A stretch of 37,257 nt of DNA from a virus. Shown in pieces: positions 2,532 to 35,575 of the stretch. The notes below the pieces were generated by a model, which did not search any database, was not told the origin of the DNA, and was given only the letters and a program-made list of their open reading frames with translations. Each line of letters begins with the position of its first letter. The stretch's first letter is position 1. The translations under genes and the position numbers were made by a program. The stretch spans positions 1-37,257 of IMG/VR virus record IMGVR_UViG_3300021438_000039. One strand, 5' to 3'.

Positions 2532-3077
2532 ATGTTTCGTAAAATAACTTTTGTCTTTTTTGTTTTTTTTGTTTTTTTTGTTTTTGTCGAAAATTCAAAT
2601 TGGGCCACAGCAACAAAACCAATCGAGGGTGGCGCAAAGAAAATAACTTTAGTTGAAGCAATTGATGATATTTGGCCTCGGTACGGGCTAAATTCTTTAA
2701 TTGCTCAGGCAGTTATCGCGCAGGAATCAGGCGGCAAGCTCGATGCAATTCGTTTTGAGCCGGGGCAAATGGCCCGAGCGCGAGAAATTACAAAGAATCC
2801 GGAGCAGCAACGCATGTATTCTAGCTCTCATTGTGCGTTTCAGATCATGGGGTGGTGGGCTCCTGAGTATAAAATTAGCTGGTCTGAGCTTTACCAAGTT
2901 GAAACTTGCACGGAGATTGCCGCGAATATTTTTAAAAAATGCTTAGAAAAGCAAAAAAACGCAGGGGATAAAACAGACAAAATCAAAAAAGCGCTTATTT
3001 GCTACAATGGCAACACGCAGTACGCCGATCAAGTGGTAGCGCGGCTTGGGCGCGTTTTAATTAATTCGAGATTGTAG
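2532..3077 (+). CDS. Secreted lysozyme-like lytic transglycosylase (SLT domain)
   Basis: A 181-residue peptidoglycan-cleaving enzyme. The N-terminus (MFRKITFV then FF/V repeats to about residue 19) is a Sec signal peptide or membrane anchor; the SLT domain follows from about residue 38. AVIAQESGGK carries the likely catalytic Glu65, HCAFQIMGWWA is the Q-I-M-G motif, and ICYNGN is the third conserved block. It is paralogous to the transglycosylase at 20048. It lies between large terminase and portal, preceded by a 94-base gap and followed by a strong terminator, so it looks like an independently transcribed insertion (moron-like). AGGGGG lies just upstream of the ATG. Role may be entry, lysis or host-wall modification. 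Confidence 0.85.
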   Translation: MFRKITFVFFVFFVFFVFVENSNWATATKPIEGGAKKITLVEAIDDIWPRYGLNSLIAQAVIAQESGGKLDAIRFEPGQMARAREITKNPEQQRMYSSSHCAFQIMGWWAPEYKISWSELYQVETCTEIAANIFKKCLEKQKNAGDKTDKIKKALICYNGNTQYADQVVARLGRVLINSRL

Positions 3078-3094
3078 GCATCGGGGCTTTTTAT
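3078..3094 (+). repeat. 17-bp direct repeat, copy 1 (half-terminator)
   Basis: GCATCGGGGCTTTTTAT starts right at the end of the transglycosylase gene and recurs identically at 3217-3233, where it is the 3' half and U-tract of an intact terminator. Here the 5' half of the stem is missing, so this copy cannot fold as a terminator by itself. Confidence 0.85.
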
Positions 3095-3195
3095 CAAAGT
3101 TTGTTTGATGTAATCTTGGGAATAGGTTGATTATTCTCCTTATTTTGCTTTCGGGGACTCGGGCCTCTTTTCTCAAAACTTTTTCGGTGGTTTTA

Positions 3196-3231
3196 GCCCC
3201 GGTGCGCTCGTAGAACGCATCGGGGCTTTTT
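3196..3231 (+). terminator. Rho-independent terminator after the transglycosylase gene
   Basis: The stem GCCCCGGTGCG pairs with CGCATCGGGGC (11 pairs with one G-U), the loop is 9 nt, and TTTTT follows. It sits between the transglycosylase and the portal gene on the + strand and should separate the inserted gene from the head operon, or attenuate read-through into it. Confidence 0.85.
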
Positions 3232-3233
3232 AT
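3217..3233 (+). repeat. 17-bp direct repeat, copy 2 (inside the terminator)
   Basis: This copy is identical to 3078-3094, 139 bp upstream. The 3' arm and T-tract of the terminator form the repeat, which suggests that a terminator or insertion junction was duplicated. Confidence 0.85.
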
Positions 3234-3288
3234 TGAAATTTATTTGCGTTAAATTTGCTCTTTACCCCTAAAAAAAGAGCAAAAAACC

Positions 3289-4527
3289 TTGGGTATTTTT
3301 TCAAAACCACAAAAAAGATCGGCGTTGCCGCCGCCAACTGACGATTTTTGGTACAAAACGTTACCTTTTTCATCAAGCGGCGGCGGTGTTTCTACGGAAA
3401 CTGTTGCCAGCCTCGCGGCGTTCTATGCTTGCCGGTTGGTGATTTGTGAGTCGGTCGCCATGTTACCGGCGTTTGTTTTCTCGCAAGAGCAAGAAAACAA
3501 CAGCATAAAAGCCAAAGATCATCCGCTGTACGACATATTGCACGATGCGCCGAACAATCTAATGGACTCTTTTACATTTTTTGAAACGATGGTTGGATCG
3601 ATGATCGACCACGGAGCGAGTTTTAATTTTATTCAAAGAACTAAAACAGAAGAATTAGCTGGATTATTGCCGCTTGATGCCGCAAGAATCCAAACGAAGG
3701 TTGTAGACAATGAACTTTTGTTTAAATATTCCCCTATGGGGTCAGCACCGGAAAGTTATCGCGCAAAAGATATTTTTAGAGTTTTATATAATTCTAAAGA
3801 TGGAGTAACGGGGCGAACGCCAATTCAAACAGCGGCAGAAACTTTTGGATTCTCGTTAGCGTTGCAGCAACATGGGAATCAGCTTTTTGAAAACGGCGCG
3901 TTCATGTCGGGATTCTTAAAAGTTCCATTTGTTTTTAAAGATAGTGAAGCACGTTCAAACTTCATGGATTCTTTTAAGAAATATTTTGGAGCCAAGAACG
4001 CCGGGAAAGCTGCGTTGCTTGAGCAAGGTGCTGACTACGTACCTTTTTCAATGAATAATCGCGATGCTCAATTTATCGAATCCAAAAAATTATCTGTACT
4101 TGATATTGCGAGAATCATGCGAGTACCACCGCACATGATTCAAGAGTTAGAGCACGGCACAAGCTTTGCTAGCGTTGAGCAGCATTCAATTAATTTTATC
4201 CAACATACTATCCAACCCTGGTTAACTCGAATTGAAAAAGCAATTAACTTTCAGTTGCTACGAAGCAAAATAAAGAAAGCGGAAAAATATTTTGTAAAAT
4301 TTAATGCAGCGGCGTTGTTGCGCGGGGATCTAAAATCGCAAACTGAAAGTTTAGTGATGCAGATTCAGTATGGATTAAAAACAATTAACGAAGCAAGAGA
4401 ACTTTTAGATAGCAACCGGGTTTCTGATGCTATCGCAGATAATATTTTACTTTCTCATAATTTAGTCCCGGCACAAAAAGCCGTTGAACAATCTCAAAAT
4501 CTTTTAAAAGGTCAATCAAATGAGTGA
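3289..4527 (+). CDS. Phage portal protein, HK97 family
   Basis: The dodecameric ring at the head vertex through which DNA passes. This 412-residue protein has the family start MGIFSK, the helix TVASLAAFYACRLVICESVAMLPAFV, the HPLYDILHDAPN motif, the GASFNFIQR strand and the closing ARIMRVPPHMIQELEHGTSFASVEQ clip/wing region typical of PF04860. TTG at 3289 is the start: no in-frame ATG lies early enough, and MGIFSK is the usual N-terminus. A hairpin (GCTCTTT with AAAGAGC, 3257-3280) lies just upstream and could modulate initiation. The 3' end overlaps the protease gene by 8 bases. Confidence 0.93.
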   Translation: MGIFSKPQKRSALPPPTDDFWYKTLPFSSSGGGVSTETVASLAAFYACRLVICESVAMLPAFVFSQEQENNSIKAKDHPLYDILHDAPNNLMDSFTFFETMVGSMIDHGASFNFIQRTKTEELAGLLPLDAARIQTKVVDNELLFKYSPMGSAPESYRAKDIFRVLYNSKDGVTGRTPIQTAAETFGFSLALQQHGNQLFENGAFMSGFLKVPFVFKDSEARSNFMDSFKKYFGAKNAGKAALLEQGADYVPFSMNNRDAQFIESKKLSVLDIARIMRVPPHMIQELEHGTSFASVEQHSINFIQHTIQPWLTRIEKAINFQLLRSKIKKAEKYFVKFNAAALLRGDLKSQTESLVMQIQYGLKTINEARELLDSNRVSDAIADNILLSHNLVPAQKAVEQSQNLLKGQSNE

Positions 4528-9318: not shown

Positions 9319-9738
9319 ATGGCAGTAGCAGCAACAGCAGCTAAGGGCGCGGTAGTCGCGATAGGTGACGGGGCAACCGTTGAAACGTTTAACGCATTGG
9401 GTAACGTTCTTAGTGGCCCAAATGCAATTGGTTTTGAACCGCAATTTATCGAAGCAATGCCGCATGATTCGACAAATCCAATTTCTAAACCAACTTACGT
9501 TAAGAATCCGGCGATCACTTTCGATGTTCTTTATGATTCTGCTGACACGCAACATGCTGCGGTCGTGACATCGGCTAAAAACAAAACTAAAAAGAATTAC
9601 AAAATCACGCTAACCGATACAGGGGCCGAAATTTATAGTTTTGGTGCATATGCTTCAGTCAGTGTGAAGGCAGACCCAGAAGGGTTTAACGTAATGTCGG
9701 TTACGCTAACTCCTGACGGTGGAATTACTTACGCTTAA
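9319..9738 (+). CDS. Major tail protein (tail tube)
   Basis: A 139-residue beta-rich tube protein. The pattern GAVVAIGDGATVETFNALGNV at the start and FNVMSVTLTPDGGITY at the end is typical of short tail tube proteins of siphoviruses and GTA-like particles. GGAG lies upstream of the ATG. It sits between the tail terminator and the tail chaperone, as expected. It polymerises around the tape measure to form the tube. Confidence 0.85.
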   Translation: MAVAATAAKGAVVAIGDGATVETFNALGNVLSGPNAIGFEPQFIEAMPHDSTNPISKPTYVKNPAITFDVLYDSADTQHAAVVTSAKNKTKKNYKITLTDTGAEIYSFGAYASVSVKADPEGFNVMSVTLTPDGGITYA

Positions 9739-9754
9739 TAATAATTAGGAACCT

Positions 9755-10147
9755 ATGGCCCAAAGTAAAAATAATAACGTATTGCATCCTGGCGTTGTAA
9801 TTGAGATTGGCGGCGAACAAAAAAAAATTGTTTACGATATGTGGGCCGCTACTCAGTTTGAGGCGCTAACAGGCAAAAGCCTCTTTGGTAATATTGAGGT
9901 GTCTGCTAGCAACGTTGTTAATTTACTTTGGGCCGGGTTGATCCGTGAAGATGAAAAGCTTGACGGTGAAATAATTATCGTAGGGGATCTAAGAACTCCA
10001 TCAACTTCAGTTAAGGCAGCACTTAAAAAAATCGCGCAAGGTTTAGATTTTGCGCGATTTGCTGAAGTAAATGAAAAAATTCAGGAAGCGATCAGGCAAT
10101 CAGTCGGAGAGGGTGACGAAAAAAACGAGCAAGCCCAAACGACGTAG
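9755..10147 (+). CDS. Tail assembly chaperone, short (gpG-like) form
   Basis: A 130-residue protein made by normal decoding. DMWAATQFEALTGKSLF and WAGLIREDEKL are characteristic of tail assembly chaperones encoded between tail tube and tape measure. It binds the tape measure protein and recruits tube subunits. A slippery A_AAA_AAC at 10120-10126 close to the 3' end allows a -1 shift into the frame that ends at 10467, giving the long form. The zero-frame stop is TAG at 10145-10147. Confidence 0.87.
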   Translation: MAQSKNNNVLHPGVVIEIGGEQKKIVYDMWAATQFEALTGKSLFGNIEVSASNVVNLLWAGLIREDEKLDGEIIIVGDLRTPSTSVKAALKKIAQGLDFARFAEVNEKIQEAIRQSVGEGDEKNEQAQTT

Positions 10148-10180
10148 AAACTTCGCACGTTTGGGACTGGCTAGAAGTTT
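10120..10180 (+). promoter_or_regulatory. Programmed -1 ribosomal frameshift signal with pseudoknot
   Basis: The heptamer A_AAA_AAC lies in the correct zero frame at 10120-10126. After a 7-nt spacer, CCCAAACG (10134-10141) pairs with CGTTTGGG (10158-10165), a perfect 8-bp stem 1. In its loop AAACTTC (10148-10154) pairs with GAAGTTT (10174-10180), a 7-bp stem 2, forming an H-type pseudoknot with loops of 6, 3 and 8 nt. This is the architecture known to drive -1 frameshifting; here it connects the gpG-like and gpT-like parts of the tail chaperone. Confidence 0.92.
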
Positions 10181-10467
10181 ATTCTAGATCTCGGATTGAT
10201 TTAGAGCTTTCAGAAAAAGAGTTTTGGAGAATTACCCCACGGCAGTGGTCGGCACTTTGGCAAGCGCATAAAGAAAAAATAAAGCGCGAGGATTATCGGG
10301 CGGGGGTGATTGTGACAGTTATTAAACAACTCATGGGCAACAAAGATGCAAGGGTCTTTGATCATTGGCCCGAGCATCAGAATCCGGAGGAAGAAAAGAA
10401 ATTACACGCTGCAAGTTTACGTGCTGCTTTCACAGCTTATCAAGAGGTTGTGAAGAAAAATGGCTGA
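10126..10467 (+). CDS. gpT-like extension of the tail chaperone, reached by -1 frameshift
   Basis: A 113-residue stretch in the -1 frame with no good start codon of its own. It opens after the slippery site and ends at TGA 10465-10467, overlapping the tape measure start. It is rich in Trp and charged residues (HVWDWLEVYSRSRIDLELSEKEFWRI, then WSALWQAHKEKIKRED), the style of C-terminal domains of GT chaperones and of GTA-type chaperone pairs. The fusion from 9755 would have about 237 residues (124 + 113). It fills the otherwise unexplained 312-bp gap before the tape measure gene. Confidence 0.88.
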   Translation, partial: RASPNDVETSHVWDWLEVYSRSRIDLELSEKEFWRITPRQWSALWQAHKEKIKREDYRAGVIVTVIKQLMGNKDARVFDHWPEHQNPEEEKKLHAASLRAAFTAYQEVVKKNG

Positions 10468-13400
10468 TAAACGCGCAGGGGGAATATATGTCGATCTTGG
10501 CCTTTTAACGGCGAATTTTGATAAGTCTTTAAAGGAAGTCCAGAGATCGTTAGGTCGCGCATCGCGAGATTTTAGTACAGCAGGCAATGCACTTTCTAAG
10601 TCTTTTTCTTTACCACTTTTGGCTATCGGCGGCTTTGCGGCTAAAGCGGCAGTTGATTATGACAAGGCTTTTTCTACCATCCGGCGCAAGACTGGCGAAA
10701 CCGGCCAGCAATTAAATAGCTTAAAGAAAACATTTAAAGAAGTTTTTGCCGCGGGCGATGATTCTGCCGCTGAGGTTGTAACGGCTCTGACTAAAGTGCG
10801 CGTTTCAACTGGCGCTAGTGGCGATTCATTAAAGAGTTTAACAAATACAGTTTTAGATCTCGCTGATGTTACTGAGGGGGATTTAAATGCAACGGTTGAA
10901 GCTTCAACAAAATTATTAAAAAATTGGCAAATTGGACTTAGCAAATCTACCGAGTCGCTAGATTTTGTTTTTAAAGTTTCGCAAAAAACCGGCGCAAGCT
11001 TTGAATCGCTCTCAACCAATCTTGTAAAGTTCGGGCCGGTACTTAGAACTTTTGGGTTTGGGTTTAATGAGGCGGCTATTTTAATTGGGTCGCTGGAGAA
11101 AAAGGGCGTTGATGTCGAAAAAGTTTTAACTGGTTTTCAAAAAGTTTTACCAAAACTAATTGAAAATAATATACCACTTAAAGCAGGATTTGAGGGCGTA
11201 GCTGGCGCAATTGCAAAAGCCGGGGATGGAGCAAAAGGCGCAGAAATTGCACTAAATGCCTTTGGGGCAAAGGGCGGTGCTGATTTAGCAGATGCGTTAA
11301 AGGGCGGACGCGCAGAAATTGACGCGTTAACAAAATCGGTAACGGGGTCTTCTGAAACAATTAGCGGCACGGCAAAAGATTCAGAAACTTTAGGCCAAAG
11401 AATTTCAAAAACATTAAATTCCTTGAGTGATGCTCTTTCCCCAATCGGTGAAATTTTAATTAATTCTTTTTCACGTGGGTTAGACGCAGCACTCCCTAAA
11501 CTTGCTGATTTTGCAAAATATTTGAAGCAATTAAATCCCGATACGCTTAATTTCGCAATTGGGGTTAGCGCGATAGCGGCGGGGATTGGGCCTTTGCTGA
11601 TTGGCATTGGCGGGGCGATACGTGGCGTTAAGGAAGTTCTTTCTGTTTTTTCGCTCTTGTTAAAAATTCCAATTAATCCTTTTACAATAGGGGTTGCTGT
11701 TGCTTTCGGCGCAATGGCAACAGCCGCTTTTATTTGGCGCGATGATCTAAAATCTATTTTCAATAGTGTTGTTAGTTTTTTAAAACCAATTGCAACAGGT
11801 TTTACGGATGTTTTGGCCGTTGCTCAATATGTTTTCGGGACAGTTTTTAAGGCTATTTTTACCGCAGTTGTCGGCTATTTTTCAACGGTGGGCGATTCGC
11901 TTAGAGCAAATTTTAGCGGAGTATTTTCGGAAATTATAATTGCAGCTTCGGCATTGCGCGATGCGTTGAAGTCTATTTTTGCTTCTATTGTTAATTTTCT
12001 AAAACCAGTTGGGGAAGCATTCACGGCAATATTTAATAAAATCGAAGAACAGCAAACGCAAGCTTTTAACGTTCAGTTTGAAAAATTACGCGCTAGTAAT
12101 CAAAAATTAAAAGAATCATTAAAAGAAACTAGCAAGGCAACTGGGGAAGTTAACAAAGAAATAAAAGCAACAGGGGATACAGTAGCGACAACTACACCAA
12201 AAGTTGGAATGCTTGATAATACCTTCAAAGGGTTTCCCGATGGCGTCAAGAAATCCGAATCAGCGCTAAAAAATCTTAACCAGCAATTAAAAAGCTTAGA
12301 AACTGATGCACTAAAAGAATCTTTGCAAAAAGCAATTGCCTCTGGCGATATTGCCGGGTTTGAGCAGCTAAAAGCAAAATATTTAGAAAGCGTAAAAAGC
12401 GGAACGCTTGCGGGGTTGAGCGAAGCTGTTAAAAATGGCGGGGCGGAAGCTACGAAGTTAGCAAATCAAATTGCTGAAGCGAATGTAAAAAAAGAAACTA
12501 CATTAATCGATACTGAATTCACCGATTCGCTAAAAAACGCACACAAAGAATCTGTCGATTTTTGGCGGCGAAATTTCGAAAACGCAATTACTGGCGTGAA
12601 ATTCAATCTTGAAGATATGCTGAAGCAAGTCGCTGTCGGATTTGCGGCAGAGATTGCAGCAGGTGCATTCAAGGGCTTGGGTGGGATATTCAAGGGGATC
12701 ACTTCCCCTCAAGATCTTGGCGGCAAATTTGCGGAACTTATTCTCGGGAAAGCGGGCGGCCTAAGCGCCTTGTTTGGCGGGGGGCAATTGCAAGGGCCGG
12801 TGTTACCTGGGCAAGCACCACTGGGCAGCGCGGGGTTTTCTCTTTCAGCTTTTATCCCGGCAATCACAGCAGCAGCGGCAGCAGTAACCGCAAAGCTCTC
12901 AATTAGTGGTGTATCGAGTTTAGCAAAAGGCAATAAATTAAATTTAGGAGAGCAAGCAGCGCTTGCGCTTCCAACTTTTGGTACGTCGTTTTTGTTTAAT
13001 AGTTTTCTTGGTGACAAAGAAGATCCGCAACGCTTAGCGCGTGAAGCCTTTAGTAAAATTTTCGGTAAAGATTTTGATCCGGGAATTATAGATTTTAACA
13101 CAAATTGGGCTGATGATTTTTGGAGTAAATTTCAAGGTAAGGGGGCTGAAACCTTTTTAGCAGTCGGGGAAGGATTAAAAGGAATTTTTGGAATTGAAAG
13201 CGGTGTTGGCGAACAGTTCGGCGCGTTGCTCGCTGGAAACTTTGGCGGCGAATCGCTAGAAACAAATCTTGATCGTATTAAGTTGTTGCTTGATACAATG
13301 GGGGTAACGACTGAGCAGCTGATCGGGAATTTTTTTGACATGGCACAAGCTGGGGAAATTTCTTATTTGCAGTTTGAGAGTTTTCGCGATGGATTGAACC

Positions 13401-14224
13401 AATTACCAGAAGAAGGATTGGCGGCGTTTGGTGCGTTTGGGGAAGCTTTCGATCTAATTGCACAAGCTGGGAATCGCGGCAAATCAGTTTTAATCCAAAT
13501 TAAGAATTTCGCAATTGAAGCGCAGCAAGCCGGGATTAATTCTTTTGAATCGTTAAGGGCAGAGCTTTTAAGTTCTGGTAAATCAGTCGAGCAGGTTGAT
13601 GCTTTATTTGCTGCTTTCACTGAAAATGGAATTAATAATATCAAAGAACTTGCGGCGGCAACAGATCAACAACTTGGTAGTATTGTCGGCGATGCAGAGA
13701 AAGGCGGCTTTAAGTTTGAAGAATTTGGAAATGCCATAAAGGGCGTTGAACCTGCAATAAATAAACTTGCTAGCGCAATCGATAAATTATCAAATTCTAT
13801 TAACGGATTACCAAATTCTAAGACAATTAATGTAACAACAAAATATCGCACTGAAGGATCGAAGGGGGCTAGCGGTGATAGCGGATCGGGATCGGGCGGT
13901 AGTGGTTCGGGTAGTGGCGGCATCGGGATAAAATTAGCCAATGGCGGGATATTAAGCCGGGCAACTCTTGTTGCTCCAAATGTTTTAGCTGGGGAAGCAG
14001 GATTAGAGGCGTACTTTCCAGTTTCGCGGAAAAACGGCAAACTTTCGATTGCTGGCACGATGCCAACCGGGGGCGCCCCGACTATTGTTTTTAATGTTGA
14101 TGCGCGTGGCGCGGCCCCTGGGGTTCATGCCGATGTTGTTTATGCAATGTCAGAAATGCGCGATCAAATTTTGAACGATGTTGTTTCGGTAATGTCGGAA
14201 GGATCACGGCGGGGGCATTTCTAA
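10460..14224 (+). CDS. Tail tape measure protein
   Basis: A 1254-residue protein that sets tail length (about 1.5 angstrom per residue would predict roughly 190 nm) and is ejected with the DNA. The N-terminal ~330 residues match the PhageMin_Tail type (FSTAGNALSKSFSLPLLAIGGFAAKAAVDYDKAF). Hydrophobic helices occur around residues 365-425. Two related segments, LKSIFNSVVSFLKPI (about 428) and LKSIFASIVNFLKPV (about 501), form an internal repeat. A charged coiled coil follows around 530-575. Near the C-terminus is a Gly/Ser linker (about residues 1135-1155), then a small conserved cap (NGGILSRATLVAPNVLAGEAGLEAYFPV). The start overlaps the chaperone extension. Confidence 0.94.
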   Translation: MADKRAGGIYVDLGLLTANFDKSLKEVQRSLGRASRDFSTAGNALSKSFSLPLLAIGGFAAKAAVDYDKAFSTIRRKTGETGQQLNSLKKTFKEVFAAGDDSAAEVVTALTKVRVSTGASGDSLKSLTNTVLDLADVTEGDLNATVEASTKLLKNWQIGLSKSTESLDFVFKVSQKTGASFESLSTNLVKFGPVLRTFGFGFNEAAILIGSLEKKGVDVEKVLTGFQKVLPKLIENNIPLKAGFEGVAGAIAKAGDGAKGAEIALNAFGAKGGADLADALKGGRAEIDALTKSVTGSSETISGTAKDSETLGQRISKTLNSLSDALSPIGEILINSFSRGLDAALPKLADFAKYLKQLNPDTLNFAIGVSAIAAGIGPLLIGIGGAIRGVKEVLSVFSLLLKIPINPFTIGVAVAFGAMATAAFIWRDDLKSIFNSVVSFLKPIATGFTDVLAVAQYVFGTVFKAIFTAVVGYFSTVGDSLRANFSGVFSEIIIAASALRDALKSIFASIVNFLKPVGEAFTAIFNKIEEQQTQAFNVQFEKLRASNQKLKESLKETSKATGEVNKEIKATGDTVATTTPKVGMLDNTFKGFPDGVKKSESALKNLNQQLKSLETDALKESLQKAIASGDIAGFEQLKAKYLESVKSGTLAGLSEAVKNGGAEATKLANQIAEANVKKETTLIDTEFTDSLKNAHKESVDFWRRNFENAITGVKFNLEDMLKQVAVGFAAEIAAGAFKGLGGIFKGITSPQDLGGKFAELILGKAGGLSALFGGGQLQGPVLPGQAPLGSAGFSLSAFIPAITAAAAAVTAKLSISGVSSLAKGNKLNLGEQAALALPTFGTSFLFNSFLGDKEDPQRLAREAFSKIFGKDFDPGIIDFNTNWADDFWSKFQGKGAETFLAVGEGLKGIFGIESGVGEQFGALLAGNFGGESLETNLDRIKLLLDTMGVTTEQLIGNFFDMAQAGEISYLQFESFRDGLNQLPEEGLAAFGAFGEAFDLIAQAGNRGKSVLIQIKNFAIEAQQAGINSFESLRAELLSSGKSVEQVDALFAAFTENGINNIKELAAATDQQLGSIVGDAEKGGFKFEEFGNAIKGVEPAINKLASAIDKLSNSINGLPNSKTINVTTKYRTEGSKGASGDSGSGSGGSGSGSGGIGIKLANGGILSRATLVAPNVLAGEAGLEAYFPVSRKNGKLSIAGTMPTGGAPTIVFNVDARGAAPGVHADVVYAMSEMRDQILNDVVSVMSEGSRRGHF

Positions 14225-27296: not shown

Positions 27297-27644
27297 CTAG
27301 ACCCCCTCCGAGCTTAATTCTAAACCTTGGAATTCTTGTATAATATTTTCGAGAATCCTATCTATCCTTCTTTTTTCTATCTCCTTGCGCCATTTTTTAA
27401 TGCAAATTCTTAGCCAAAGGGTGAAAGGGAAACTCAGCCTAGTAACAGCGCTCCCCGGCATCGTTATTGAGAGCGAAGGACTTAAACAAATTTTTAATTT
27501 AGATTTTTCATGAAATAACAAAATCCAATTAGAATCTACCGCAGTTACCCACTGAGAATCGAATACCCAATCTTCGGGCCGATGTTGCAGAGATCGACAA
27601 ATTAACTTAGTGGCTTTCATTTGTTTGATAATTCTCGTTGTCAT
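27297..27644 (-). CDS. Hypothetical early protein overlapping the helicase stop
   Basis: A 115-residue protein. The start at 27644 overlaps the helicase stop at 27641 as ATGA; an internal Met at residue 9 is the alternative. The N-terminal half is beta-rich (EDWVFDSQWVTAVDSNWILLFHE), and the C-terminal half has a basic helix (WLRICIKKWRKEIEKRRIDRILENI). No family recognised. Confidence 0.5.
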   Translation of the reverse strand: MTTRIIKQMKATKLICRSLQHRPEDWVFDSQWVTAVDSNWILLFHEKSKLKICLSPSLSITMPGSAVTRLSFPFTLWLRICIKKWRKEIEKRRIDRILENIIQEFQGLELSSEGV

Positions 27645-29308
27645 ATCCCAATTGCTTCGCGTAAATAATTCTGCGTTGATTTTTCTGCATCAATTTCTTT
27701 TTTGCTTTTGAATTCAGCGGACAAAATACGCCAATATTTGCCATCTTTTTTTGCTCGGAGGCTTTTGATTGGTTTCAATTCGCTGATACGGGCAAGCGCT
27801 TCGTCAATTGTTTTGGGGGTTGAAAAAGCTCGCTCTCTTTGCGCTCGCTCTCTCCACCATCTAACCGCTTTTTGTCTCGCAAAATTCTCCGCTGGATGTT
27901 CAAAGCAAATCCATTCCATAATTATTCGCGCATCAAGACAAAGATAGTCTACGCGCAACGTGGGGATGCGCTCAGGCTTTTCATTTTTTTTGTAGCTAAC
28001 GTTCAAAACTTCGAATTCTTGCGGTAGGGAACGCGCAAGCGGATCGGCGTTGGTGGCCTCTGCATCGTGTTTCGGTTCGATTGGAAAAATATAACCACAG
28101 TCTAAACATTCTTTTACGGCAGGGTGCATTATAGATCTACAACTTGGGCAAGTCTTGATCGGGCCACGGGATGCAATCCCTTCCTTATCACCGGTTGCAC
28201 CTTTGCCGCTTTTTACAATTATTTCAGTTATTGGGCCGTGCCGCTCAATATTCCCGGCAAAATCAAGCACTAAACAATTTTGCTTACCCTGCGCGGGTCG
28301 CATACCACGACCAACTATTTGACAATAAAGGCCAGTGCTTTGTGTTGGTCGAAGTAAAATAATCGCATCGGTATTTGGCGCATCAAAGCCAGTTGTAAGC
28401 ACGTTACAATTGCAAAGCGCTTTTATTTTCTTGTTTTTAAAATCTTCTAAAAGTTTTTTTCTTTCAAATTTTGGCGTTTCACCAGTTACGATTTTAGAAA
28501 AAATATTATTGCGAGTTAGTTCTTCACAAACATGGTTAGCGTGCTCAATCCCGGTGCAAAATACCAGCCAAGAGCTACGATCAGATGCGTACTTTAAACA
28601 CTCTTTAATTGCGGCGCGAGTTAATTCTTCTTTATCCATTGCCCTTGCTGAATCAGTTTCTAAGAATTCTCCGCCACGTATTCTAACTTCAGATAAATCA
28701 GCTTGTGTTGCCGCATTTTTGCCAATTAGCGGCGATAAAAAGCCATCTTTTATCAGTTCAGAAATCGAAATATTATAACAAATATCAGTGAATATTCTTC
28801 CTTCTCCTTGATGCAGCAAACCGCTATCAAGTCGAAACGGTGTGGCGGTAAATCCAATTATTTTCAGATTTGGATTTATTTCACGCATTGCGGAAATAAA
28901 AGTTAAGTAGCGCCCTTGGCCTTTTTTGGGGATTAAGTGGCATTCGTCAATCAAAATTAAATCAAAATGACCAAAAGTTTCAGCTTTGCTAAAAACGGAT
29001 TGAATCCCGGCGATTGTAATTTGATTAATTCGCCTTGAGCCTAATCCAGCACTGTATACTCCAAGTGGGCACCCGGGCCAAAATTGCAAAAGCTTGCTTG
29101 CGTTTTGTTCTAGTATTTCCTTGACGTGCGACAAAATTAAAATTCTTTGATCCTTGTAGGATTCACAAACTCCACGCACGAAATCAGCAATTAACAATGA
29201 TTTCCCCGAGCCGGTTGGGGCAACAACAAGCGGGTTGCCAGCATTGCCAGCCTCAAAATACCGGTAGATGCTGGCAATCGCAGCTTGTTGGTAGGGTCGC
29301 AAGTTCAT
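27641..29308 (-). CDS. SF2 DEAD/DEAH-type helicase, UvsW/SSL2-like
   Basis: A 555-residue helicase. Motifs in order: LRPYQQAAIASIY, Walker A VVAPTGSGKS (28-37), LILSHVKEIL, DECH (121-124), GFTATPFR, and the C-terminal domain motifs VFCTGIEHA, LTTGFDAPN and QIVGRGMRPAQGK (motif VI). A zinc-finger-like CPSCRSIMHPAVKECLDCGY follows. Such phage helicases resolve branched DNA and replication forks. The gene lies downstream of the Sak4-like and DUF669 genes and forms a recombination/replication set with them. Confidence 0.9.
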   Translation of the reverse strand: MNLRPYQQAAIASIYRYFEAGNAGNPLVVAPTGSGKSLLIADFVRGVCESYKDQRILILSHVKEILEQNASKLLQFWPGCPLGVYSAGLGSRRINQITIAGIQSVFSKAETFGHFDLILIDECHLIPKKGQGRYLTFISAMREINPNLKIIGFTATPFRLDSGLLHQGEGRIFTDICYNISISELIKDGFLSPLIGKNAATQADLSEVRIRGGEFLETDSARAMDKEELTRAAIKECLKYASDRSSWLVFCTGIEHANHVCEELTRNNIFSKIVTGETPKFERKKLLEDFKNKKIKALCNCNVLTTGFDAPNTDAIILLRPTQSTGLYCQIVGRGMRPAQGKQNCLVLDFAGNIERHGPITEIIVKSGKGATGDKEGIASRGPIKTCPSCRSIMHPAVKECLDCGYIFPIEPKHDAEATNADPLARSLPQEFEVLNVSYKKNEKPERIPTLRVDYLCLDARIIMEWICFEHPAENFARQKAVRWWRERAQRERAFSTPKTIDEALARISELKPIKSLRAKKDGKYWRILSAEFKSKKEIDAEKSTQNYLREAIGI

Positions 29309-29309
29309 T

Positions 29310-29450
29310 TTATCGTTGTGCCATTTGTTTAAAATAAATATCTACAGCACGATCACTTTTCCCGGCGTTATAACCAAAATAAAAAAAGCAAGCGGCTAGA
29401 ATAATTGAGCCGAAAAACAATGAAATTAAAAAATCTCGGTCGGGTGTCAT
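29310..29450 (-). CDS. 46-residue membrane microprotein
   Basis: MTPDRDFLISLFFGSIILAA then CFFYFGYNAG gives one transmembrane segment followed by a basic/polar tail ending MAQR. It ends 1 base before the helicase start. Its ATG overlaps, as ATGA, the TGA of an open frame that covers 29451-29570 without a start codon. Unknown function. Confidence 0.5.
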   Translation of the reverse strand: MTPDRDFLISLFFGSIILAACFFYFGYNAGKSDRAVDIYFKQMAQR

Positions 29451-29561
29451 ATTTCGCCATTCTCCCTGTCATCGGCCTCGGGCGCACCACTCCTGCCTTT
29501 AACAAAACTAAGAACATCCGCAGCGGTGCGCCAGAAAAAAGCGAAAGCACGTTCATTTTTT

Positions 29562-30068
29562 TTACTTTGCCCAAGGTGCTTTTGCTTTTTGGGTTTCCGG
29601 AGGCATTTCTTTGATTTGCGCGGCTACGTTTTGCTCCGGATTTTCAGCATCCTCAACTTTCTGGGCGTTTGCAATCGCATATGGTTTAAATGCTTTAATT
29701 TTGTTCTGCTCGGGGTTTTGCTTGTCGAGATCAACAACAATCCGGATCGGGCAATCGTGCAACTCGTTAGAGTCTTTTAGTTCTCCGTTTATCCCACAAG
29801 CGCGAGAAATTGCGGATAATTGCCCACGGCCAATTGCTTGAGCTTCAGAATTCGGGTTCACAATATTGAGATTGTGAAACAAAATTCTATTTTGAAATTT
29901 ACCTTCTAATATTTGAAAAACTAATTTCAGATACTTCCCCGTCTCGGCCTTTGTTTCCTTAACGTCACTTGCTGTTATCATCGCAATATATTCCCCTCTT
30001 GGAAGTGGTGCATATTCGCTAGTGGGCTCAACTTCTCTATTGTCAAAACTAATTCCTAATTCAGCCAT
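29562..30068 (-). CDS. DUF669 protein, ssDNA-binding-like
   Basis: A 168-residue protein. GISFDNREVEPTSEYAPLPRGEYIAMI, then KYLKLVFQILEG and NRILFHNLNI, are diagnostic of DUF669, an OB-fold-like phage family thought to bind single-stranded DNA next to Sak4-type recombinases. The C-terminus PETQKAKAPWAK is a usual family ending. AAGGA lies upstream of the ATG. Confidence 0.86.
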   Translation of the reverse strand: MAELGISFDNREVEPTSEYAPLPRGEYIAMITASDVKETKAETGKYLKLVFQILEGKFQNRILFHNLNIVNPNSEAQAIGRGQLSAISRACGINGELKDSNELHDCPIRIVVDLDKQNPEQNKIKAFKPYAIANAQKVEDAENPEQNVAAQIKEMPPETQKAKAPWAK

Positions 30069-30117
30069 ATTTTTCCTTTCTTGTTTTTTTGTTTTTATTG
30101 TTTAGAGATTTTTTTAT

Positions 30118-30873
30118 TTATTTTTTAGGCCACATTGCGGCGGCAAATGTTGCCCAAGAGGTTTCTTTTTCGAACGGCAGTTCGTACGGCAAGGAGTAAC
30201 GATTCTTAGCCCAATGCGTTGGCCGTTCTTCTGTATAAAGAAACCTTAAATTTTGGGCCGAATTTGTGGCTTTTGTGGTTCTTTGGTCAGCGGAGGTTTT
30301 TGTAAAAACTTTGTATTTTGCAAATAAAATGCAATCAGCCCAATCGCGAATAAAACTTGCCGATTTATCGTGCAAATCTAACCGATACCTATCATAGCTT
30401 TCGGTGTCGGGGGAATTAAAAGTCTTAATTAGCGAGTGGCCAACTAAGATAACGAGCATTTGCTTGTTATTCCTAAGCCAATTTAGTTTATTTGCGACAT
30501 TATCCCAAAGCCCAAGCGCAAAAACGTAGCCTTTCCCGTAAGCGATCTCTTCGATTACTTCCTTCCCTTCATCTTCCGCAACTTTTTGAAAAATTAATTT
30601 TTCTAGCCAATCAAGCGAGTCGATAATAACAGTGCTAAAATCATGTTTTTCTTTTTCTAGCGAATCAAGCGAGTCAATAACATCTTGGTATGTAGTCGCA
30701 AGCGGAAATCTCGGGATATCTAATTGCCCTAAACCATCTTCGGTTTGAATCAGCACCGGGCTTGGGGCTTGCGCGGCGAAAGTGGTTTTCCCAATCCCGT
30801 TTTCCCCGTAAATAATAATTCGAGGCGGTTTGTTTTCCTGGCCGTGTTGGAGCGATTTTAGGTTGATTGCCAT
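30118..30873 (-). CDS. Sak4-like RecA-fold ATPase (AAA_24)
   Basis: A 251-residue single-strand annealing/recombination ATPase. The P-loop IIIYGENGIGKTTFA (19-33), Walker B FSTVIIDSLDWLEK and the sensor region ILVGHSLIKTF are as in the AAA_24/Sak4 group. Such proteins promote annealing with DUF669-type SSBs and supply phage recombination. It is the first gene of the leftward early operon, so its upstream region (30874-31010) should hold the main leftward early promoter. Confidence 0.88.
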   Translation of the reverse strand: MAINLKSLQHGQENKPPRIIIYGENGIGKTTFAAQAPSPVLIQTEDGLGQLDIPRFPLATTYQDVIDSLDSLEKEKHDFSTVIIDSLDWLEKLIFQKVAEDEGKEVIEEIAYGKGYVFALGLWDNVANKLNWLRNNKQMLVILVGHSLIKTFNSPDTESYDRYRLDLHDKSASFIRDWADCILFAKYKVFTKTSADQRTTKATNSAQNLRFLYTEERPTHWAKNRYSLPYELPFEKETSWATFAAAMWPKK

Positions 30874-30925
30874 TGTTTTTTGCCTTTATTTTGAATTGAT
30901 ATTTTTTCTTTACCAATTACCTTTT

Positions 30926-30940
30926 TTTGTCTATGACAAA
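30926..30940. promoter_or_regulatory. Palindromic operator candidate in the divergent early region
   Basis: TTTGTC, TAT and GACAAA form a 6-3-6 inverted repeat in the 137-bp gap between the leftward Sak4-like and rightward helicase genes. It is the only clear palindrome in the gap, as expected for the site of a shared repressor. The flanks are A/T-rich; AGGGTATAA precedes the + gene. Promoter boxes are not resolved. Confidence 0.5.
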
Positions 30941-31010
30941 GACTCTCTAACCCCAAACCAAAAAACACGCAAGAAAAAAAACGCAAAATAAAAGAATATA
31001 GGGTATAAAT

Positions 31011-32387
31011 ATGAATTATTCGGAATTTCTTAAAAGCAAGCAACATTCTCAAGTTGATTATGGAATTGAGCCCTTTTTTTTCCCGAATAATTTATTTGAT
31101 TTTCAAAAACATGTTGCAACTTACTCGATTAAAAAGGGGAGATGCGCGGTATTTCTCGATACAGGACTTGGTAAAACAATCATCGAATTAACCATTGCTA
31201 GAAACTATATTCAACACACTAATAAGCCCGTTTTAATTATTTGTCCGCTAGCGGTGGCCTTCCAGTTCTTAAAAGAGGCGGAGAGATTTGGTATAGATGA
31301 CATATCCTATTCCAAAGACGGGAAGTACGATACTAAAATTGTGGTATGCAACTACGAGCGGTTAGAGAAATTCAATAGCAATGATTTTAATTGTGTAATT
31401 TTGGACGAAAGCTCCATTCTCAAAAATTTCGAGGGGGCTACAAAAAAGCTTTGCACAAATTTTTTGCAAAAAGTGAAATATAGATATCTATTTACGGCTA
31501 CGCCTTCCCCTAATGATTATGTCGAACTAGGGACATCCTCGGAGGCGTTGGGGTATTTAGGGTATATCGACATGCTTACAAAATTCTTTAAAAACAATAA
31601 CAATACTATTAAAGCATCTGGACAACACAGAGCCGGGGAGGAATGGTATCTAAAACCTCACGCGGAAAAATCATTTTGGCAATGGATGTCAAGTTGGAGT
31701 ATTAGCATGAGGAAGCCAAGCGATTTAGGCTTTAGTGACGCCTTGCATACCCTCCCCTCGCTTGACGAAGTTCAAACTATTGTTAGAAATAAACAGCCTA
31801 TTGCGATAAATAATCAATGTTCTTTGTTTAACTTCCCTGCTACGAACTTTTTTGAAATAAAAGCGGAAGTTAGAGCAACAATACAGGAACGATGCGAAAT
31901 GGCGGTAGAAAAAGCAACCGATCATGATATCTCTGTGTATTGGGTAAACTTAAATGACGAGGCGGATTTGATTTCAAAATTGGACAAAGAAGCATACGAA
32001 ATAAAGGGCAAAATGAATATAGACGAGAAAGAAGAAGTTTTACTTTCCTTCTCTAACGGGGACATTAAGAAATTAATAACGAAAGCCTCTATCACAGCAT
32101 TTGGGCTAAATTGGCAACACTGCAACCATACAACATATTTCCCCACCTACTCCTACGAGCAATACTATCAGGCGATAAGAAGATTTTGGCGATTTGGCCA
32201 GACAAGACCAGTTACCGTAGATTTGGTTTTATCGGATGGTCAAACACGAATAATGGAAAGTTTGATGATAAAAAAAAATAAAGCGATTCAAATGTTTGAA
32301 AATTTAACTACTCAAACAAATTCAGATTATAAAATTACAAAAAAAGAATTCGACAAACAAATATTATTGCCAAGTTTTATTAATTAG
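31011..32387 (+). CDS. SNF2-type DEAD-like helicase
   Basis: A 458-residue SF2 ATPase. Motifs: Walker A FLDTGLGKTI (49-58), LLICPLAV-like (IICPLAVAFQFL), DESS (132-135) in place of DEAH, FTATPSPNDYVELGTSSEALGY (motif III region) and the C-terminal AIRRFWRFGQTRPV (motif VI) with SYEQYYQ. This helicase type is common in phages next to a DNA methylase, as here. Exact role is unknown: possibly fork or DNA-protein remodelling. Divergent from the Sak4-like gene; 14 bases before the methylase. Confidence 0.85.
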   Translation: MNYSEFLKSKQHSQVDYGIEPFFFPNNLFDFQKHVATYSIKKGRCAVFLDTGLGKTIIELTIARNYIQHTNKPVLIICPLAVAFQFLKEAERFGIDDISYSKDGKYDTKIVVCNYERLEKFNSNDFNCVILDESSILKNFEGATKKLCTNFLQKVKYRYLFTATPSPNDYVELGTSSEALGYLGYIDMLTKFFKNNNNTIKASGQHRAGEEWYLKPHAEKSFWQWMSSWSISMRKPSDLGFSDALHTLPSLDEVQTIVRNKQPIAINNQCSLFNFPATNFFEIKAEVRATIQERCEMAVEKATDHDISVYWVNLNDEADLISKLDKEAYEIKGKMNIDEKEEVLLSFSNGDIKKLITKASITAFGLNWQHCNHTTYFPTYSYEQYYQAIRRFWRFGQTRPVTVDLVLSDGQTRIMESLMIKKNKAIQMFENLTTQTNSDYKITKKEFDKQILLPSFIN

Positions 32388-32401
32388 TTGAGGGGGAATT
32401 T

Positions 32402-33385
32402 ATGATTAAAGAGCAAACAATCAAAGATAATTACGCCTTGTATAATAGCGACTGCATGTATGTATTACCTACGTTGCCAACTTCAAGTATTGATCTAAGT
32501 ATATATTCCCCGCCTTTTGCGGGACTATACAACTATTCAAGCTCAGAAAACGATTTCTCGAACTGTGAAAGCAGGGAACAATTTTTAGAGCAATACGATT
32601 TTTTAATCGCAGAGATGGCAAGAATAACAAAGCCCGGGAGAATAAGCGCCGTCCATTGCACAGATATACATGATAATAAGTGCTATTTGTGGGATTTCCC
32701 GCACGAAATAATCCGGCTGCACGAGAAGCACGATTTTTTTTATCGCAATAGAATCACGATATGGAAAGAGCCATTGAAGGTCAGAATGAGGACGATGGTT
32801 CAATCTTTAATGCACAAATTTATTGTAGAAGATACGACGCGTTGTTTTACTGCGATGCCTGATTATATATTAATATTTACGAAAAAAGGGGAAAATAAAA
32901 TACCCGTAACTCATCCATTTGGTTTAAACGAGTATTTTGGAGAAACTCCTTTTCTCCCCGCGCATATCGAAACTTACGGCAATTACGCGGATTTTAAAAA
33001 AAAATGGATTAACTACGATGGAGATCCGCGAGAAAACAAAATGTCTCATTTGATTTGGCAACGATACGCGAGCTCTGTTTGGGATGATATCCGAATTGAA
33101 AATGTTTTGCCTTTTAAAGAAAGCAGGGAGGAGGACGACGAAAAGCATGTTCACCCCTTACAGCTTGATGTAGTCGATAGGTTGGTAGAGCTTTATAGTA
33201 ACCCAAGGGAGGTGGTATTGACTCCATTTATGGGAGTAGGCTCGGAGGTATATAGCCCTGTTTCTCTGGGAAGAAAAGCTATAGGGATAGAACTAAAGGA
33301 TAGTTATTACAAACAAGCAATAATGAATTTAAAAGACGCTGATTCTAGATTTGAAAAAAAAGAAAATCTAACGCTGGCGTTCTAA
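32402..33385 (+). CDS. Beta-class DNA methyltransferase (N4-cytosine or N6-adenine)
   Basis: A 327-residue DNA methyltransferase. The catalytic motif IV (SIYSPPFAGL, SPPF at 36-39) comes first and the S-adenosylmethionine motif I (TPFMGVGSEVYSPVSLGRKAIGIELKDSYY) near the C-terminus: the beta-class order of PF01555. SPPF favours N4-cytosine or N6-adenine; target sequence cannot be told. GAGGGGG gives a strong ribosome-binding site. No restriction nuclease is adjacent, so it may be an orphan methylase protecting phage DNA, partnered with the preceding helicase. Confidence 0.87.
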   Translation: MIKEQTIKDNYALYNSDCMYVLPTLPTSSIDLSIYSPPFAGLYNYSSSENDFSNCESREQFLEQYDFLIAEMARITKPGRISAVHCTDIHDNKCYLWDFPHEIIRLHEKHDFFYRNRITIWKEPLKVRMRTMVQSLMHKFIVEDTTRCFTAMPDYILIFTKKGENKIPVTHPFGLNEYFGETPFLPAHIETYGNYADFKKKWINYDGDPRENKMSHLIWQRYASSVWDDIRIENVLPFKESREEDDEKHVHPLQLDVVDRLVELYSNPREVVLTPFMGVGSEVYSPVSLGRKAIGIELKDSYYKQAIMNLKDADSRFEKKENLTLAF

Positions 33386-33394
33386 AATTTCGTT

Positions 33395-35575
33395 ATGAAT
33401 ATTTTTCAAAGTTTAATTGAAAAAGAAGTCTCAGCAATCCCCATAATCTCTAAAGACAAAAGACCGGGCCGGTACATAGACAATCGATGGTACTACCTGG
33501 AGTGGCAAAAATATCAGCGCGAGATCGCAGATAAAAAAACATGTGAAGGCTGGAGTAAGTGGCCGGGTGTCGGCGTTGGGGTTGTGCTTGGCAAAGTTTC
33601 AGGAATTGTTGCAATAGATTTTGATAATCAGCCTGAGCTTTGCGAGCGCATTTATAAAATGCTTCCTGGTTCCCCGGTCATCAAAAAAGGAAGTAAAGGA
33701 TTTACCGCATTTTATAAATATAACGGTGAAGGCTCGCGGCGTTGGGTTGTTGATGGTGAGGTGATTTGTGAATTGTTAAGCGACGGTAGACAAACCGTTA
33801 TCCCACCGTCGCAACATCCAAACGGCAATAATTACGAATGGCTAACAAGTGAAACACTTTTAACAATCGACAAAAACGAATTGCCAAGCTTGCCAAATTT
33901 AGATTTTATCAATGAAATAGTTGGCGGCAAAACGAATTCAAAACAAGTTATCCTAGAGCCTAAAAGCAAAGAAAATTCACTAACAACAATCGATGAAGTA
34001 ATTGACGCTCTCGAATTTTGTAGTCCTGATTGTGGGTATCACGAATGGATCGAAATCGGAATGGCGATTGCTTCGGAGTTCCCGGGCGGTGATGGTTTAA
34101 ACGCTTGGAATAATTGGAGCGCAAAAGGTTCAAAATACAAAGAAAGCGAAATGCAAAATAAATGGGCAAGCTTTCGCGGCTCAGGGATCAACATAGAAAC
34201 TTTATTTTGGTATGCAAATTTAAACGGCTACTATGCGCGGCAAGAAATTAATCCTGATATTCAAGCCTCGGTTGAAAATTTAATTGCTAATTTAGAAAAC
34301 AAAAAAACAGAAATCGAAAATACCAAAAAAGAAAGTTTTGTGATTTCTGATGATTTAGCGATGAACGCACCGGGGCTTGTCGGCAAAATCACACGCTGGA
34401 TTACGCAAACAGCCATCAAGCCCCAGCCGGCATTAAGCCTCGGAGTGGCGCTTTCTCTAGTTGGGGCATTAAAAGCGCACAGGGTGCGAACCGAAACAAA
34501 TTTAAGAACAAATTTATTAATTATTGGGCTTGCGAAATCAGGCGCGGGGAAAAATCATCCAATAGAATCGGCTAAAAAAATATTACACGAAGTTTTGCAA
34601 TCGGGATTAGTGGGTGGGGAACCACAGAGCGCGGCAGGGCTACTTAAATCCATGCAAAACAATTTTGGCCGGCGATTAATTTTATGGGATGAATTCGGAG
34701 AAGCTTTGAAAATTCTAACATCACGCAATGCGGCGGGGCATCAGGCGGCGATTATCGGAACAACAATGAAATTGTTTAGCAGCGCGGGGTCTATTTTCAT
34801 TGGCGGTGAATACGCCGATCACGATTCTAAAATGTCGCGCAAGGATATCGAGCAACCATGTCTTTGCGTTTTTGGCGCGAGCACGCCGGGGAACTTTTAT
34901 AAAAGTTTAAATTCTAGCCATGCGCTTTCGGGGTTCTTGCCGCGTTGGCTGGTTTTTGAAATCGAAAATAAGCGAGTAAAAAAACGGCGCGAGGCGCTAA
35001 CAGCGGCGAACAAAATATCAGAAAATATTATTGAAGAAATAAAATCAATTCTCAACATGCCGACCAACACAAACCCAAGCGGGAATCTTGATGCAATTAG
35101 CGGAATAAAACCCAAAGTTGTGAATTTTAGCAAAGAAGCAGAAACGCTATTCTGGGAAGCCGATGATTGGTTTGAGGATCAAGCGCAGGACGCGGCAGAA
35201 GGGGTTGATACTGTTTGGAATCGTGCGAGTGAGCACGCCGCAAAGCTCGCGCTTACAGTTTGCGACAATAGCGAAATCACAAAAGAAGATTTAACTTGGG
35301 CGGTCGAAATCACAACAACTTGCATCAGCGCACTAGCCCAATCAATCACAACTCAAATCGCGGATTCCGATTTTGAGCGCAAGAAAAACAAAGTTAAGGA
35401 AATAATTTCTAAAAATGAAAATGGGGTTTTAAGAAAAACGCTTTTAAAAAATTCTCACACAAGCGCGAAAGAACTCAACGAAATTTTAAACACAATGTTG
35501 GAAGCTGAAGAAATTACCGCCCAGCCCACAAGCGGGGCCGGTCGGCGCGGTAATTTGTATAAAATTTATTCTTGA
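33395..35575 (+). CDS. Prim-pol / helicase fusion: primase-polymerase, PriCT-2 and DUF3987 domains
   Basis: A 726-residue replication protein. Residues 1 to about 185 are the bifunctional primase-polymerase (PF09250) with active-site AIDFDNQ (73-79) and the VIPPSQHPNGNNYEWL signature. About 200-275 is PriCT-2 (YHEWIEIGMAIASEFPGGDGLNAWNNWS). From about 320 comes a DUF3987 RecA-like helicase with Walker A AKSGAGKN (about 379-386) and Walker B LILWDEFGEAL (about 428). The C-terminus (VLRKTLLKNSHTSAKELNEILN) is a winged helix. It likely opens and primes at the phage origin. It overlaps the convergent RHH gene by 10 bases. Confidence 0.9.
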   Translation: MNIFQSLIEKEVSAIPIISKDKRPGRYIDNRWYYLEWQKYQREIADKKTCEGWSKWPGVGVGVVLGKVSGIVAIDFDNQPELCERIYKMLPGSPVIKKGSKGFTAFYKYNGEGSRRWVVDGEVICELLSDGRQTVIPPSQHPNGNNYEWLTSETLLTIDKNELPSLPNLDFINEIVGGKTNSKQVILEPKSKENSLTTIDEVIDALEFCSPDCGYHEWIEIGMAIASEFPGGDGLNAWNNWSAKGSKYKESEMQNKWASFRGSGINIETLFWYANLNGYYARQEINPDIQASVENLIANLENKKTEIENTKKESFVISDDLAMNAPGLVGKITRWITQTAIKPQPALSLGVALSLVGALKAHRVRTETNLRTNLLIIGLAKSGAGKNHPIESAKKILHEVLQSGLVGGEPQSAAGLLKSMQNNFGRRLILWDEFGEALKILTSRNAAGHQAAIIGTTMKLFSSAGSIFIGGEYADHDSKMSRKDIEQPCLCVFGASTPGNFYKSLNSSHALSGFLPRWLVFEIENKRVKKRREALTAANKISENIIEEIKSILNMPTNTNPSGNLDAISGIKPKVVNFSKEAETLFWEADDWFEDQAQDAAEGVDTVWNRASEHAAKLALTVCDNSEITKEDLTWAVEITTTCISALAQSITTQIADSDFERKKNKVKEIISKNENGVLRKTLLKNSHTSAKELNEILNTMLEAEEITAQPTSGAGRRGNLYKIYS

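Follow-up and report, generated by a model that had tools for sequence, protein, structure and literature searches.

A predicted lambda G/GT-type −1 frameshift in a viral tail-assembly chaperone gene, and the RNA stem that follows the slippery site in its family

In a virus of the IMG/VR collection (record IMGVR_UViG_3300021438_000039), the short gene between the major tail protein and the tape measure protein is overlapped by an open −1 frame. How is this second frame translated, and does an RNA pseudoknot take part? A sequence-only reading had proposed that a textbook −1 frameshift pseudoknot joins the two frames, as the two halves of a tail-assembly chaperone. Here we consider the frameshift and the pseudoknot separately, in the whole stretch of 37,257 nt (hereinafter the window) and in its relatives.

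The gene order of the window is that of a standard siphovirus: terminase, portal, capsid, connectors, tail terminator, major tail protein, chaperone pair, and tape measure. Specifically, phrog matches place the pair between the major tail protein and the tape measure (Table 1). The right arm (27641–35575) encodes two helicases, an N6/N4 DNA methylase, and a Prim-Pol/DUF3987 primase, whose nearest relatives, 24–28% identical, are in proteobacterial phages. No DNA relative of the window was found in the phage collection searched.

The anatomy of the site agrees base for base with the sequence-only reading. The slippery heptamer A_AAA_AAC is in frame in the ORF 9755–10147, where the codons read GAA(122) AAA(123) AAC(124) GAG. 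Downstream of it come a spacer of 7 nt and then two perfect stems, S1 of 8 bp and S2 of 7 bp, the second crossing the first. The loops of the proposed S1/S2 structure are 6, 3, and 8 nt long, and the first of them contains the 0-frame stop. After the heptamer, the −1 frame runs through 113 codons (10126–10464) to a stop at 10465–10467, and thereby overlaps the tape-measure start at 10460. The predicted gpG-T fusion is 237 aa long. As had also been claimed, the −1 frame has no ATG, GTG, or TTG start yielding at least 60 aa, and the gap that it fills contains no second ORF of this length or longer. The AT-rich genome has 109 in-frame X_XXY_YYZ heptamers in 8,706 codons; with so many, the heptamer alone carries little weight.

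Table 1. Features of the chaperone locus, in window coordinates
Feature	Position	Strand	Evidence
Major tail protein (context)	9319–9738	+	phrog_158, E = 7e-7
0-frame tail-assembly chaperone half, gpG-like, 130 aa	9755–10147	+	phrog_2115 tail protein, E = 6.6e-12
Possible internal SD-like GGAG, 10 nt before heptamer	10106–10109	+	window p = 0.58
Slippery heptamer A_AAA_AAC	10120–10126	+	sequence; same heptamer near gpG stop in 19/73 family loci
7-nt spacer GAGCAAG	10127–10133	+	sequence
S1 5' arm CCCAAACG	10134–10141	+	p = 0.007 (dinucleotide shuffles), 0.02 (synonymous codons)
0-frame stop TAG ending unshifted product	10145–10147	+	sequence
Candidate crossing stem S2, 5' arm AAACTTC	10148–10154	+	perfect 7 bp; p = 0.10–0.13 given S1
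S1 3' arm CGTTTGGG, over T-half V-W-D codons	10158–10165	+	perfect 8-bp complement; interval stem-enriched family-wide
Candidate S2, 3' arm GAAGTTT	10174–10180	+	perfect 7 bp; p = 0.10–0.13 given S1; overlaps hairpin 10171–10187
Competing local hairpin CTAGAA/TTCTAG	10171–10187	+	−5.6 kcal/mol alone; in MFE fold
−1-frame half, gpT-like, 113 codons + stop	10126–10467	+	relatives in 61 viral loci, best E = 1e-15
Tape measure protein (context)	10460–14224	+	phrog_991, E = 6e-40

The T half of the window has weak matches to PF09550 and PF06223 (tail chaperone/tail T families). By itself it scores below the curated cut-off of PF09550 (Phage_TAC_6; 19.2 vs 23.4 bits), and the gpG protein of the window has no match to PF11836 (Phage_TAC_11) at the curated cut-off. 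When the proteins of the family are aligned, 19 of 22 T proteins, the window's among them, match PF09550 at E ≤ 0.01, and 16 of 22 gpG proteins match PF11836 (Phage_TAC_11/GTA-gp10) at the same threshold. Both halves give confident AlphaFold models, with pLDDT of 84.7 for gpG and 88.4 for T. The matches of the gpG model in a viral fold search include annotated tail assembly chaperones (E = 1.8e-5); its search against solved structures returned no match.

Searches by DNA and by single proteins found no close relatives, and a wide TerL search, which returned mostly unrelated tail modules, was discarded. A distant phage, PV036453, has weak matches to both halves, adjacent to each other. There, too, the T half overlaps gpG in the −1 frame, and C_CCA_AAC lies directly at the gpG stop. 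Small profiles derived from the pair were then used to search for further relatives of each half: the gpG search gave 26 viral loci and one bacterial contig, the T search 61 viral loci. Because these loci were picked by protein similarity, not by heptamer, they are a fair test of the heptamer. After removal of duplicates, the family comprises 73 loci.

The two-frame layout is conserved. In nearly all loci, the T half lies in the −1 frame overlapping gpG. The aligned T proteins have the residues W..LW..GR.DL.LSE.EFW.LTP and D.RA in common. An in-frame X_XXY_YYZ heptamer is present in the overlap near the gpG stop in 48 of the 73 loci, against 3.7 expected, and A_AAA_AAC itself in 19, against 0.06 expected. 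Thus, the two features whose absence from related phages had been named as the test of the frameshift proposal, the heptamer and the −1 frame, are both present in relatives. The full heptamer is absent from the stretch tested in 25 of the 73 loci. Seven loci without it (L145, L151, L159, L163, L164, L171, and L172) have GAC_CCT in common near the gpG stop. C_CCY is a known shift-prone tetramer (PMC4066793), and these relatives may use single-tRNA slippage. Separately, at the tail protein gene of an Anaerosphaera phage (L006, 18246–18290), A_AAA_AAC is followed by a 12-bp stem.

The relatives also bear on two explanations that do without frameshifting. Homopolymer runs are error-prone, and one long gene could have been split by a mistake in sequencing or assembling the A run. 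However, the same 0/−1 split recurs at the homologous place in dozens of independent contigs, on different heptamers; because relatives show the same split, we exclude such an error, whose probability we regard as negligible. Alternatively, the T half could have its own initiation, either at an unusual start or by ribosomes that re-initiate close to the gpG stop, and the public annotation of PV036453 does call a distinct downstream ORF. At 3001–3644 of that phage, two separate hypothetical proteins are annotated, the second from an internal start, and no −1 frameshift. Separate translation is nevertheless highly improbable: the window has no ATG, GTG, or TTG start of the required kind, most relatives have no start before the conserved core, and the in-frame heptamers and the stems would be left unexplained.

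The stem that follows the heptamer was compared with chance, in the window and in the family. In the window, S1 alone is modestly significant: 723 of 100,000 dinucleotide shuffles contain a stem as strong at this spacing, and the synonymous-codon null gives a similarly small p-value (Table 1). Its onset 7 nt past the heptamer is within the ~5–9 nt range for pseudoknot-type signals. The family test covered the window and the other heptamer-bearing loci, 54 in all. In 59% of them, the strongest stem that begins 4–14 nt past the heptamer beats dinucleotide shuffles at p < 0.05 (Fisher 5.5e-34), and the enrichment persists when the −1 frame is randomised over synonymous codons (Fisher 1.5e-26); the family loci are interrelated, so these combined p-values overstate independence, and the flat controls are the better guide. 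Specifically, at six control positions 90–210 nt away only 2–9% of loci fall below p = 0.05, with the strongest, +90, marginal at most (Fisher 0.02), and the +90 and +150 controls are flat under synonymous randomisation. Selection for a stem directly downstream of the heptamer is strong across the family.

In about 14 relatives, the 3' arm of this stem lies over the codons of a conserved T-half motif, G-R-[YF]-D. Differing synonymous codons of the motif are met by matching 5' arms, as read from the listed arms and not by a formal covariation count. Twelve loci (L099, L118, L120, L124, L130, L131, L139, L148, L150, L167, L170, and L173) have the motif codons under their 3' arms and matching changes in their 5' arms, and in these an RNA structure overlies a conserved protein motif. 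The stem of the window lies further upstream than those of the relatives, over V-W-D. Because the 3' arm of S1 covers these codons, S1 is retained in 28% of cases when synonymous codons are randomised with the 5' arm fixed, and for this reason the 3' arm alone is weak evidence. S1 is nonetheless a believable stimulator, because stems at that place are strongly selected in the family.

The heptamers and the stem also help to tell ribosomal from transcriptional slippage, in which the two frames would be joined on the A run when the RNA is made. The window has seven A (10119–10125) and a few relatives have runs of A8–A9, as this explanation would favour. However, most A_AAA_AAC relatives have only six A, half of the family is on non-homopolymer heptamers such as CCCAAAC, CCCTTTG, and AAACCCT, and a selected downstream mRNA stem fits ribosomes. 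Transcriptional slippage is therefore very improbable.

The proposal that a −1 frameshift joins the two chaperone halves is thus strongly supported by the −1 frame and the heptamer, which recur in relatives, and by the stem selected in the family. On sequence grounds, the gene very probably carries a programmed −1 ribosomal frameshift of the lambda G/GT type. The slippage itself, its efficiency, and its role in tail assembly we infer as follows. Most ribosomes would stop at the 0-frame TAG and release the 130-aa gpG-like protein. In a minority, A_AAA_AAC would let the tRNA-Lys (P site, AAA) and the tRNA-Asn (A site, AAC) slip by −1 and pair anew with AAA_AAA. Translation would then resume at CGA 10126 to give the gpG-T fusion, with the shift stimulated by S1. 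On the lambda model, G would be the part that binds the tape measure protein and T the part that recruits the tail tube protein; what would matter is therefore a low GT:G ratio. Such a signal, with an S1-type stem-loop stimulator and membership of the G/GT tail-chaperone class, would be ordinary in kind.

Whether the stimulator is a true H-type pseudoknot, with the shift dependent on S2 forming on S1, is a separate question. The description of a compact, perfectly paired pseudoknot stands as far as the pairing goes: both stems are perfect, and the loops are sterically possible. S1 plus S2 of this strength occurs at this spacing in 72 of 100,000 dinucleotide shuffles, and either structure, stem-loop or pseudoknot, is known in some related recoding signals (PMC5009743). 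However, S1 carries much of that rarity (723 vs 72 of 100,000), and distinct sites with a similar pseudoknot score number well over twenty in the window. With S1 kept and the loop and 3' flank shuffled, an equally good S2 appears 5,053 times in 40,000 (12.6%), or in 9.8% by a second estimate, and by itself S2 is within chance. Crossing stems are unenriched in the 54 loci, which are distant relatives (Fisher 0.82; 1/54 below 0.05). L114, whose T half has the best E-value among the relatives, has a tetraloop hairpin that leaves no room for S2.

In the window, the bases of S2 are partly common to the local hairpin at 10171–10187, which is used in the MFE fold. S1 together with this hairpin has an energy of −16.1 kcal/mol; the pseudoknot would be about equally stable, at approximately −16 kcal/mol by a rough hand estimate from stem energies and typical loop costs. 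With S2 not significant given S1, crossing stems unenriched in relatives, and a competing hairpin, the epithet "textbook" is not borne out, and a pseudoknot that forms and matters is rather doubtful. The locus is a caution that a perfect-looking pseudoknot beside a real frameshift site can have a second stem that is within chance.

A Shine-Dalgarno (SD)-like site upstream of the heptamer is a possible helper of the shift. In the family, GGAG, GAGG, or AGGA peaks 6–10 nt upstream of the heptamer (30 of 54 loci vs about 7). Shuffles and control positions made the peak look convincing, but little of it survived when synonymous codons were randomised (Fisher 0.034 in the family; p = 0.58 in the window), and it is mostly explained by the amino-acid composition of the gpG tail. 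For this reason, an SD stimulator is not claimed.

One trait of the family was unexpected, namely its preference for AAC as the second slippery codon. At sites with an AAA-type second codon, the last base is C in 29 of 36 and never T (54 family loci: the window, L001, which is PV036453, and L087–L174), against C in 31 of 232 background heptamers. For AAAAAAN alone, the preference has a Fisher exact p of 3e-9. In E. coli, A_AAA_AAC shifts weakly (PMC5009743; PMC4066793), and AAG is favoured at the A-site slippery codon; the family favours AAC. Because the heptamer is weak there, the shift efficiency in the true host cannot be inferred. The preference may reflect a need for a low GT:G ratio, obtained by pairing a weak heptamer with a hairpin; alternatively, tRNA modification may be different in the hosts of the family. 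It is unlikely, in our estimate, that this chaperone class has a signal of its own, a "mammalian-like" AAC heptamer with a fast-changing stem-loop that has here grown into a working H-type pseudoknot.

Frameshifting of tail G/GT genes, presented as known in the sequence-only reading, is indeed well known and widespread (PMC5009743; PRFect, PMC10885494), and determines in what ratio two tail-building chaperones are made. In two tested tail-chaperone cases, the shift occurs at 6–7% (PMC3711429). A literature search, from which most subscription journals, Xu 2004 included, were out of reach, found no paper on the signal of this chaperone family. Annotation can miss the T half, as in PV036453, where T is called as a separate truncated ORF. 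Because the comparative set consists of many natural sites with matched heptamers and stems, it makes testable why these bacterial viruses so often pick AAC, a poor shifter in E. coli, together with a hairpin.

Among known systems, the E. coli dnaX and IS911 signals (upstream SD, heptamer, hairpin) resemble the site in the heptamer, the hairpin, and the GGAG 10 nt upstream, and differ in that the SD here is not distinguishable from amino-acid composition. RNA-virus H-type pseudoknots of the IBV and MMTV type have in common with it the heptamer, the 7-nt spacer, and possibly S1 and S2; unlike in those, S2 is here unsupported by statistics or relatives, the inter-stem element is 3 nt, and a hairpin competes. 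The IS-element cluster A_AAA_AAC_1 is a proven A_AAA_AAC frameshift (PMC4066793) with the same heptamer, but in an IS element, not a phage tail gene, and with no established stimulator. The haloarchaeal virus HCTV-2 uses A_AAA_AAC for its gene G/T frameshift (PMC5009743); the likeness is by heptamer and gene pair, not sequence comparison, and the host is archaeal. The GTA gp10 type (PF11836, TAC_11) and PF09550 (TAC_6) are matched by relatives, with the window proteins below curated cut-offs.

A close parallel in layout is lambda gpG/gpGT, whose −1 frameshift and counterparts in other long-tailed phages (Levin 1993; Xu 2004) are reviewed in PMC5009743. The window differs in its A_AAA_AAC heptamer, its clear 3' stem, and its TAC_11/TAC_6-like rather than lambda G/T proteins. 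The lambda heptamer is GGGAAAG. As in lambda, the pair lies between the major tail protein and the tape measure, a 0-frame product has a −1 extension, an X_XXY_YYZ heptamer is close to the gpG stop, and T is without a separate start.
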